A stretch of DNA of 64,000 bases, taken from the NCBI GenBank assembly GCA_022486585.1, contig JAKVKI010000005.1, forward strand, positions 19,685 to 83,684. The letters are read 5' to 3'. The translations under genes and the position numbers were made by a program. Positions 11,647 to 15,824 of the stretch are shown here, in pieces (the stretch's first letter is position 1; each line of letters begins with the position of its first letter). The DNA is from Megasphaera sp. Lineage in GTDB: Bacteria; Bacillota; Negativicutes; Veillonellales; Megasphaeraceae. The notes beneath the pieces are model-generated. The model searched no databases and was not told where the DNA came from. It saw nothing but the letters and a program-made list of their open reading frames with translations.

Positions 11647-12984
11647 TTAGCGCCCCTCTTTTTTCATATGGCGTATGACAAAGAAATAGCATCCTGTCGT
11701 GAACAAGCAGGCAGCAATCCAGCAAATAGGACTAGCATAACAAATGCCCAAATAGCCCCACATGCCTGCTAGTACGAAGGCAGATAGTCCTCGCAGGAAT
11801 AGTTCTAACAAACTGCTAATAAGGGGTACGCTGGAAATGCCCATGCCCTGCAACGCGTTGCGGAAGACAAAAATCTGTCCCAAGAAGAAATAGAACGGCA
11901 CAGAGTACTTGAGATACAGCGAAGCCTGTTCCATCAATAGTTCATCATACTCTGCCGTGAACAAGGCAATGAGTTCCCGGCCATAGAAAAACATAGATGC
12001 CGCCGCAAACGCACAAAAACCTAAAGAGACTAAGGAACATTGCCGGGCACCTTTGCGAATACGAGAATACTTCCCTGCCCCGTAGTTCTGCGCCGAGTAC
12101 ACTGCCATTGCGATGCCAAACGAAATCATAGGCTGTAATGCCAGCTGTTCTATTCGTGTCGCTGATACGAAGCCGGCAATCGTTTCAGCACCGAACGTAT
12201 TCGTCACAGATTGGATTGCCAGAATTCCGAAGGAAATGATCATGAACTGCGAAGCCATCGGTATGCCTAATTTCAAATGTTTCCAGGCAAATTCACTATT
12301 CCAGGACCAGTCCTGCCGCTGCAGCCTCAGAATAGGAAAACGGGCACGCATATAACAAAAACAAGCAATCGCTGAAATCGCCTGGGCAATGACCAGCGCA
12401 ATAGCAGAGCCTGCTACGCCCCAGCCAAATACGATGATGAACAGTAAGGCCAGCAGTACATTGAGGATAGACGACACAATAAGAAAATAAAGTGGCGTAC
12501 GGCTGTCTCCTAAGGCACGGCAAATACAAGATAGTAAATTGTACATCATCATGGCAATAAGGCCATAGGCGATGATAATGACGTAATGGTACGAATCATC
12601 ATATAACTCCGCCGAAATATTCATGACTGCCATGATCCAAGGCATGCCAAGCACCGATCCTATGGTCAGTATTAACGTCAATCCTACAGACAGCATGGCC
12701 GACATAGCTACTGAACGACGCACGCCCGCTTCATCGCCAGCACCAAATCGCTGCCCTACAATGACGGTAAATCCCGATGCCATCCCTATCGTAAGGCCGA
12801 GCATAGCCATGAAGACCGGTGCCGTCGCACCGACAGCTGCCAAAGCATGGACACCGATAATGCGGCCTACAATAATGATATCAGCTATATTATAAAACTG
12901 TTGAAACACATTCCCAATAAGTAAGGGAACTGTAAATGCCAAGATAAGTTTGATAGGACTTCCCTGGGTCATGCTACGAATCAT
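11647..12984 (-). CDS. MATE family efflux transporter
   Basis: Twelve-TM protein with GSPIKLILAFTVPLLIGNVFQQFYNIADIIIVGRIIG N-terminus. Confidence 0.95.
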   Translation of the reverse strand: MIRSMTQGSPIKLILAFTVPLLIGNVFQQFYNIADIIIVGRIIGVHALAAVGATAPVFMAMLGLTIGMASGFTVIVGQRFGAGDEAGVRRSVAMSAMLSVGLTLILTIGSVLGMPWIMAVMNISAELYDDSYHYVIIIAYGLIAMMMYNLLSCICRALGDSRTPLYFLIVSSILNVLLALLFIIVFGWGVAGSAIALVIAQAISAIACFCYMRARFPILRLQRQDWSWNSEFAWKHLKLGIPMASQFMIISFGILAIQSVTNTFGAETIAGFVSATRIEQLALQPMISFGIAMAVYSAQNYGAGKYSRIRKGARQCSLVSLGFCAFAAASMFFYGRELIALFTAEYDELLMEQASLYLKYSVPFYFFLGQIFVFRNALQGMGISSVPLISSLLELFLRGLSAFVLAGMWGYLGICYASPICWIAACLFTTGCYFFVIRHMKKEGR

Positions 12985-13147: not shown

Positions 13148-13176
13148 TTGTCTTTATATTCCCCTATCTGTATAAT
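13148..13176 (+). promoter_or_regulatory. Consensus-like promoter of the HUH transposase-like gene
   Basis: TTGTCT, 17 nt, TATAAT, followed by AGGAGGTGATC. Confidence 0.7.
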
Positions 13177-13202
13177 GGACGCATCAGGAGGTGATCGTGT
13201 TC

Positions 13203-13697
13203 ATGTACATCAAATCCGGCAATGCATCCCACGCAGATAAAACGACCCATACGTTGATGCCGCATACGCAACTCATTACATTTCGGACGTATCAAAACCA
13301 GCTGACGCTGGGAAGCATCCACAGCAAAAACGGCAGAAACATTTGGGTTCCCTCAGACTGGGGATTGGCCGTCGATGCAGCTATGCCGCAATTGAAGAGT
13401 TTTAGCAATGTCATTTTCATTGATTCCTATTCCATTATGCCCAACCATATTCACATGCTGGTCATATTCCGCAGTTACCAGCCCCGTCTGACCAATTGGT
13501 TCATCTCGTACAGCAAGCAAGTCTTAGTACAACGCATGATGCGCGTTCGCCCGGCTGCAGAACCCATATGGGATCTGGCCTATACGGCGCAGTCCATCCG
13601 CCATTCCTTCACCCAGTCTGCTGTCAGCATGAGCCTGAAAGAACATCAGGCTCACTGGCAATATGATGATCTGTATGTAAGCAATGGTACGGACTGA
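13203..13697 (+). CDS. RAYT/Y1-type (IS200-like HUH) transposase-related protein, predicted catalytically impaired
   Basis: SIMPNHIHMLV HxH motif and C-terminal IR...W..D..Y; Ser at the expected catalytic Tyr. Start uncertain (GTG 13191, GTG 13197 or ATG 13203). Confidence 0.8.
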   Translation: MYIKSGNASHADKTTHTLMPHTQLITFRTYQNQLTLGSIHSKNGRNIWVPSDWGLAVDAAMPQLKSFSNVIFIDSYSIMPNHIHMLVIFRSYQPRLTNWFISYSKQVLVQRMMRVRPAAEPIWDLAYTAQSIRHSFTQSAVSMSLKEHQAHWQYDDLYVSNGTD

Positions 13698-13705
13698 TTC
13701 CCAGA

Positions 13706-13747
13706 AAATGAATAGCCTTGCAGCATGTACTGCAAGGCTATTCATTT
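13706..13747. terminator. 18-bp perfect hairpin between convergent HUH gene and recO
   Basis: AAATGAATAGCCTTGCAG CATGTA CTGCAAGGCTATTCATTT. Confidence 0.7.
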
Positions 13748-14512
13748 CTAAGGCAGCATAGGTGCTGAATAAAACAAAGACAGACTCTTTAATTTTTTCT
13801 CACTGCATTGACAAAAATAGCTGTACAAGAGCTGTTCTGCCAAATCTACATCGCGGGCTTTAAAATGCAGCGTCGCCGCCTGCCCCCAAGGATATTGCAG
13901 CATCGTTTCCCATAGGGACCGTACAGAATCAGGCAGGATGATTTCCTGTTTGTCCTGTTCCATCGTATCGCTGAAAAAATAAATAACCTGCCCCTGTGAA
14001 TCCCTGCCGTCTGCATAGATACGAACCTGGGCCGTATCCGGATAAAATCCGGCCCAGCCAATGAGCTGCCAGGCTGCGATGATCGTAACGATACGAGGAT
14101 TTTTCACTTCTATGGCCCGGCCGTATACAACGAGCAGACGATATATATCTTCATCTGCCTGATGCGGCTCCATGATATTCATGACCATTTCTAAAAATAT
14201 CTGCGTATATACATATACAGACCACGTCAGATTCATCATTGCCGTATTGCTGCGGCACTCATATTCCGTCAAGCGGTATACACCGTTTTTTTCTACGGCA
14301 TCAAAGGTTATTTCGCCCAACGCAATGAGCGTGCCATAGCCTTGGCGGGCTTGGCGATTCCGTTCAACAAATACGGTAAGAATCCCTTCCTGTCTCGTAT
14401 AGACTGTCATGACCTGCTGGCGAATGCCAGCTTTTTTTAATTTCAGGATAATCCCGTCATACGAGCGGGACGGTGTGAACCCACCGTATCTAGTCCTCCC
14501 CTTCATGAGCAT
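13748..14512 (-). CDS. recO: DNA repair protein RecO (start uncertain; upstream ATG at 14533)
   Basis: DGIILKLKKAGIRQQVMTVYTRQEGILTVFVERNRQ N-terminal OB-fold; downstream of era as is common. Confidence 0.85.
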   Translation of the reverse strand: MLMKGRTRYGGFTPSRSYDGIILKLKKAGIRQQVMTVYTRQEGILTVFVERNRQARQGYGTLIALGEITFDAVEKNGVYRLTEYECRSNTAMMNLTWSVYVYTQIFLEMVMNIMEPHQADEDIYRLLVVYGRAIEVKNPRIVTIIAAWQLIGWAGFYPDTAQVRIYADGRDSQGQVIYFFSDTMEQDKQEIILPDSVRSLWETMLQYPWGQAATLHFKARDVDLAEQLLYSYFCQCSEKKLKSLSLFYSAPMLP

Positions 14513-15824
14513 CACTCTTTTCAGGCGGTACATTTCGTTCGCTTTCAGGAATAACGATCGCTTTCAGACGGGCAATACGGAAACGGCTGACTTCCATGAC
14601 GATGAACTTATACAAGCCAATCGATACAGCATCGCCAATAGAAGGCGTATGCCCTAACAGATTGAACACATAGCCGCCGATCGTATCCGTATCGACATCT
14701 TCTTCTACAGGGATATGCAGCAATTCTTCGACATCATCCAGCAATACAGTCCCATCAAATTCATAGGCACCATTAGACAGCGGTACGATATCTTCTTTCT
14801 CTGCTGTATGCTCGTTGCGAATATTGCCGACTAACTCTTCCAATATATCTTCCAGCCCAATGAGGCCGACAGTACTTCCGTATTCATCGACGACCATCGC
14901 CAAATAGGTACGGCGCGCCCGCATGAGCTGCAACAGCTTCGAAGCCGGCATGATTTCCGGTACCATGAGTATAGGCCGCTTGACAATGCGGATATTATTA
15001 TGTTTATGGAGATACAGGTCCATCAAATCTTTAATGTGGACAAGACCTAATACGTGATCCTTATCTTCTTCACACAAAGGATAGCGCGTATGCCGTGACT
15101 GCCGTATGGTCTTGAGATTCTGTTGCATCGTTTCTTCTGCATACAGACAGACAATATCCTGACGAGGGACCATGATTTCTTTGGCCAGTCGATCAGCAAA
15201 GTCAAATACATTGCCAATGAGCTCACTTTCTACCTGGTCGATTTTCCCTTCCTTATGGCTCGCCGTAACGAGCATGCGGATCTCATCCTCTGAATGAGCC
15301 ATATCTATTTCATTGGTCACTTCCAGCTGGCGGTTATTCAAAATGACCTTGCCCAGCCAGTTGCCAAAAGTAATGATCGGTCGGACGAAGCGTCCCCAGA
15401 TACAGATGAATTTGCTCACCCGTTTCAGACTCGATTCCGCCTCTTGCAAACCAATGGATTTAGGAATCAATTCACCGAAGACCCACATAAGAAGGCACAG
15501 AACGATACAGATAACCGCATAGACACCGGCAACGATAGCAGGCATGCCCAATAAATCTAAAAACCAGTCATAACACTGCATCAAGCCGTAAAGTACGGTC
15601 GCACCGGCCAGCAGACCGGAAATAGCCATCCCCAGCTGTGCTGTCCCCAAGAATAACACAGGCCGTTCATACAACCCTAACAGACTTTTGGCTTTTTCAT
15701 CACCGTCGCGGATCAACTCTTCAATATATTCCCGTCTAAGCTGTGCAAAGGCAAATTTGCCAATAACGCAAATAGCGCTCAATAGTATACATATGATATA
15801 AATAAGGAAACATTCCCCTAACAA
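14490..15824 (-). CDS. Hemolysin/CNNM-family protein (CNNM, CBS pair and CorC/HlyC domains)
   Basis: EIMVPRQDIVCL, AMVVDEYGSTVGLIGLEDILEELVGNI. Confidence 0.95.
   Translation of the reverse strand: MLGECFLIYIICILLSAICVIGKFAFAQLRREYIEELIRDGDEKAKSLLGLYERPVLFLGTAQLGMAISGLLAGATVLYGLMQCYDWFLDLLGMPAIVAGVYAVICIVLCLLMWVFGELIPKSIGLQEAESSLKRVSKFICIWGRFVRPIITFGNWLGKVILNNRQLEVTNEIDMAHSEDEIRMLVTASHKEGKIDQVESELIGNVFDFADRLAKEIMVPRQDIVCLYAEETMQQNLKTIRQSRHTRYPLCEEDKDHVLGLVHIKDLMDLYLHKHNNIRIVKRPILMVPEIMPASKLLQLMRARRTYLAMVVDEYGSTVGLIGLEDILEELVGNIRNEHTAEKEDIVPLSNGAYEFDGTVLLDDVEELLHIPVEEDVDTDTIGGYVFNLLGHTPSIGDAVSIGLYKFIVMEVSRFRIARLKAIVIPESERNVPPEKSDAHEGED

Follow-up and report, generated by a model that had tools for sequence, protein, structure and literature searches.

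A tyrosine-less HUH protein family between MATE and recO genes in Megasphaera relatives, probably exapted from a Y1 transposase

The window, that is, the whole stretch of 64,000 nucleotides analyzed, belongs to a 1.9-Mb draft genome and contains, between a MATE-type transporter gene and recO, a gene whose basic protein product has the fold of HUH (Y1 transposase/RAYT) proteins (Table 1). Because a GGTG-containing Shine-Dalgarno sequence precedes the start by a few bases in all 14 orthologues, the ATG at 13203 is the likely start; the arrangement is kept across the orthologues, one of which has a non-ATG start codon in this register. The preliminary description had assigned the feature to 13148 to 13747, of which 13203 to 13697 proved to be coding, whereas 13148 to 13202 and 13698 to 13747 are non-coding. 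The nearest named orthologue, from a Megasphaera sp. metagenome-assembled genome, shares 65% protein identity. The neighboring RecO is unusually divergent, scoring 36.9 bits against an NCBIfam cut-off of 48.7, and its identity among genomes of the same family is mostly 37 to 51%.

Table 1. Features of the tyrosine-less HUH gene and its surroundings in the window
Feature	Coordinates	Strand	Remarks
MATE-type transporter gene	11647..12984	-	Divergent neighbor, conserved synteny; name from sequence, no family scan
Promoter-like TTGTCT-17-TATAAT	13148..13176	+	Boxes recur in nearest orthologue
Shine-Dalgarno AGGAGGTGATC	13186..13196	+	
Tyr-less HUH (Y1-derived) protein gene	13203..13697	+	164 aa, stop included
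MPNHIH, HxH metal-site motif	13437..13454	+	Residues 79-84; kept in 12/14 orthologues
Ser144 codon	13632..13634	+	Catalytic Tyr position
His148 codon	13644..13646	+	Metal-ligand Asn position of YIxxNP (ligand role: PMC6006769)
WQYD	13656..13667	+	Residues 152-155; ancestral Trp and Asp, new family-invariant Tyr154
Single-copy 18-bp hairpin	13706..13747	.	Between convergent genes, probably bidirectional terminator
recO	13748..14533	-	Convergent neighbor, conserved synteny

Two promoter-like sites were found where 2.1 were expected, so that the match upstream of the gene is by itself no better than chance. The TTGT and TATAAT boxes nevertheless recur, inside a poorly conserved spacer, in a 65%-identical orthologue (G008). 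The hairpin after the stop codon is real, with perfect 18-bp arms and strong folding (z = -6). It occurs once in the genome and was not listed by a scan for T-tailed terminators, since only ATTTCT follows the stem. Unrelated hairpins, mostly with A-rich and T-rich flanks, follow the stop codon in five orthologues (G008, G006, G007, G003 and G009), and the others have weak hairpins or none. Because its sequence differs or the hairpin is missing in the orthologues, it is probably a bidirectional terminator between the convergent genes and not a REP element. The suggested link to REP hairpins was therefore rejected; single-copy and not conserved, the hairpin does not match the flanking, dispersed REP hairpins typical of RAYT genes.

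To the Pfam model Y1_Tnp, the window protein alone scored 17.9 bits, below the cut-off of 23. Across the family, Y1_Tnp matched 12 of the 14 orthologues at an E value of ≤1 (best 2e-5), and the NCBIfam model REP_Tyr_transpos matched 12 of the 14 at ≤0.1 (best 1.3e-10). When the 14 members were compared as a profile with 7 canonical relatives by hhalign, the probability was 99.6% (E = 1.5e-23, 144 columns). From the Trp to the C terminus this alignment runs without gaps; Ser144 falls at the catalytic Tyr, and His148 at the Asn of YIxxNP. The reading frame, the HxH motif (IMPNHIHM, residues 78 to 85) and the gapless C-terminal alignment described earlier are real, and the coordinates given for the Ser codon were exact. 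An AlphaFold model of the window protein, built on a shallow alignment of 6 sequences, reached a pLDDT of 77 and a pTM of 0.74. In a Foldseek comparison with the PDB, the 30 best matches of this model (E value of ≤0.001, TM score of about 0.5) were without exception transposases of the IS200/IS605 or REP type; they include ISDra2, IS608, S. tokodaii TnpA and 4er8. By profile and fold similarity the protein thus belongs to Y1_Tnp/TnpAY1; of the features of the enzyme, HxH is present and the catalytic Tyr on helix D is missing. The predicted pI lies between 8.9 and 9.9 in all 14 members. The gene most likely derives from a Y1 HUH endonuclease of the YIxxNP type (RAYT-like, class 2; Quentin et al. 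2018). There was no convincing PADLOC match that would indicate membership in a defense system, and the relatives in viral contigs were only distant, Tyr-bearing proteins.

Orthologues of 158 to 178 residues were present in 14 of the 17 genomes of the host family (Megasphaera relatives, from two related genera). In searches that covered 62 genomes of the order, 381 of the class and 399 of the phylum, the close family occurred only in those 14. They form one branch with an SH-aLRT support of 99, or 98 when the active-site columns are omitted, in an unrooted tree with long branches. The host genome contains one Y1_Tnp match, in agreement with the single copy reported earlier; with this one match and a conserved locus in the orthologues, the multiple near-identical mobile copies of IS200/IS605 elements were not observed.

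The same MATE gene adjoins in 13 of the 14 loci and recO in 12, so that the conserved recO synteny for which the preliminary description proposed to look was found; of the two loci without adjoining recO, one lies at a contig end and one is relocated. In G006 (L005/L090), the Tyr-less gene is no longer at the MATE-recO locus but next to the atpD/atpC end of the operon for ATP synthase, and MATE is still beside recO. The gene is missing from G001 and G010, where MATE is likewise off the recO locus but present elsewhere, and from G012, an 82% complete draft that likewise yielded no recO. Its absence from at least two near-complete genomes indicates that it is not essential. Pairwise identities of the ORF correlate with those of the flanking genes, which together with the synteny indicates that the gene has been inherited vertically and was now and then lost or relocated.

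At the position of the catalytic tyrosine, Tyr was found in none of the 14 orthologues, which carry Ser (8), Asn (4), His (1) or Cys (1). Both the Asn at +4 and the Pro of the Y---NP signature are missing from all 14 as well, the window protein reading S-LKE-HQ. In contrast, the catalytic Tyr and the NP Asn were both present in 32 of 32 sampled outside relatives, which had been chosen by their HxH motif and not by Tyr. The loss of the nucleophile claimed in the preliminary description is thereby confirmed, and it is family-wide; a fixed Tyr-to-Ser change is not, as the residue there varies (S, N, H or C). The simplest reading would be that Tyr was lost once, before the members of the family parted, and that the position has drifted since. 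One genome (G011) contains a Tyr-bearing canonical relative (L046, YIENNP) as well as the Tyr-less orthologue, a natural control.

The other residues described as kept fared differently: Trp152 and Asp155 are ancestral, whereas Tyr158 is variable and Arg133 occurs in only 5 of the 14 members. Other residues conserved in the outside relatives have gone from the family too, namely the N-terminal Arg, the Tyr of YDY, the Gln of WQ and, in most members, His130; W48, P50, A56 and Y154 are gains, invariant or nearly so. Tyr154 is invariant in all 14 members and missing from all 32 outside relatives. The HxH motif is kept in 12 orthologues, including the window protein, and its block supplies 5 of the 13 columns that are invariant among these 12 (chance about 1e-3, all block positions). 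Four residues after the Tyr, the metal ligand is Asn in TnpAREP or Gln in IS608 (PMC6006769); this position, 148, where the third metal ligand would be expected, is His in 9 of the 12 HxH-bearing members and Tyr or Gln in the other three. The two remaining orthologues, L011 (G009) and L012 (G013), have PDCIQ or PDRIQ in place of HxH, both histidines being gone in addition to Tyr. These two retain Tyr154 and Trp152 despite the loss of the metal site. The loss thus seems to have proceeded in steps, the nucleophile going first and a single lineage giving up the metal site afterwards.

Missing catalytic residues, fast divergence and loss in some species would also fit what is left of a decaying insertion sequence or RAYT. 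However, all 14 frames are open and free of frameshifts although between most species the synonymous sites have nearly reached saturation, and the ribosome-binding sites and the synteny are kept. In three pairs the synonymous sites were unsaturated; there dN/dS was 0.10, 0.18 (the pair without HxH) and 0.20, as compared with 0.09 to 0.12 for recO and 0.03 to 0.07 for MATE. These values indicate purifying selection, and on their account we rejected decay, which is now very improbable. The fixed locus, vertical inheritance and purifying selection found here are the marks of an exapted host gene. Selection holds even in the two HxH-less species. Taken together, the sequences indicate that the gene is a vertically inherited, very probably cleavage-dead exapted transposase and not a decaying insertion sequence.

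Three functional alternatives, each unlikely, share this genetic background. The catalytic center might have been rebuilt, with His82, His84 and His148 holding a metal ion and water or Tyr154 acting as the nucleophile, so that the protein would still be a nuclease or strand transferase. The frequencies of HxH and His148 and the family-specific Tyr154 would suit such a site, but Tyr154 persists in the two members without HxH, which points to a structural role; it lies beyond helix 135-150, which carries the catalytic position in the AlphaFold model; and the three HxH-bearing members with Tyr or Gln at position 148 do not fit. About equally improbable is a protein dedicated to regulating the divergent MATE gene, at the level of transcription or RNA; this would account for the arrangement in 13 of the 14 loci and for the absence of the gene from G001 and G010, where MATE departed from the locus. 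The move to atpDC in G006, with MATE left beside recO, and the persistence of the MATE orthologue (71% identity) without the gene in G001 and G010 weaken a strict link, and the spacer showed no evident conserved inverted repeat of the operator type. Finally, the fold could serve as a scaffold for protein-protein contacts only, nucleic-acid binding having gone; the loss of Tyr, Asn and other ancestral positions, and continued selection in G009 and G013 without HxH, lend this some color. Against it, conservation in 12 members is among the highest at the HxH block and all members are basic, so that it too appears improbable.

The reading we prefer, at a probability of roughly 0.6 for the statement as a whole, is that of an exapted non-cutting nucleic-acid-binding protein. 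A Y1-derived gene would have taken its place between MATE and recO ahead of the diversification of the Megasphaera family, lost its nucleophilic tyrosine in the common ancestor and been inherited vertically since. Y1 enzymes cut through a 5'-phosphotyrosine link, which would not be expected to form without the tyrosine, leaving neither nicking nor transposition. That the ancestral cleavage chemistry is missing is highly likely, because the residue is lost and Tyr-to-Phe mutants of the TnpAREP proteins of Escherichia coli, Stenotrophomonas and Marinomonas fail to cleave (PMC8266576). Removal of the Tyr need not stop binding, since the Y132F mutant of ISDra2 was crystallized with its DNA (PDB 2xo6). 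The retained HUH fold, the basic charge and, in most species, the metal site would then bind a structured single-stranded DNA or RNA hairpin without cutting it, for example as a regulator or as a factor protecting single-stranded DNA. By analogy with these relatives, hairpin DNA or RNA binding is a reasonable putative function; binding may nonetheless have changed or gone, as several conserved residues outside the active site were lost (the N-terminal Arg, the YDY Tyr and the Q of WQ).

Among known systems, the nearest are TnpAREP/RAYT proteins (class 2 TnpAY1, Y---NP; PMC6006769), with subclass 2.4 'YIxNNP' closest by motif. The HUH fold, the NHxH motif, a similar length, a low copy number and a position outside any insertion sequence are common to both, and the nearest relatives by search are YIxxNP proteins. 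The window family differs in lacking the catalytic Tyr, the NP Asn, WQ, the N-terminal Arg/YDY and, as judged from the hairpins after the stop codons, REP hairpins, and in its fixed locus and vertical inheritance, RAYTs being patchy in distribution. Two RAYT-like genes of G724 (L138 and L142) have long in-frame insertions of short repeats (e.g., APCQNG) before the catalytic helix, reaching up to about 390 residues; they recall the REP insertions inside subclass 2.4 genes. With the IS200/IS605 enzymes ISDra2 and IS608 the window protein shares the predicted fold and the HxH site, but not the Y---Q signature, intact Tyr, mobility and often many copies of IS200 enzymes. It resembles the domesticated, immobilized mobile-element proteins of prokaryotes reviewed in PMC8987985 in being element-derived, selected and vertically inherited, and differs in being a Y1 HUH enzyme without its nucleophile across a bacterial family. 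The main TnpAY1 survey kept only sequences with HuH and Y motifs and deemed the others probably non-functional (PMC6006769). A literature search that covered few subscription papers returned no published description of a selected Tyr-less Y1 clade.

When HUH surveys retain only sequences with an intact Tyr, as the 2018 classification did, selected proteins can thus be discarded as non-functional. RAYT-type HUH transposases have been called domesticated while still able to cut; a clade that does not cut yet is under selection would separate binding from cleavage in nature, and would offer a compact, manageable system for asking how a host benefits from carrying such a protein. At somewhat short of even odds, the family turned an HUH endonuclease into a non-cutting binder by losing the nucleophile, retaining but remodeling the metal site (Asn to His) in most lineages and later dropping that site in one. 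If true, Megasphaera and its relatives would display, in nature, the successive stages by which a nuclease becomes a binder.
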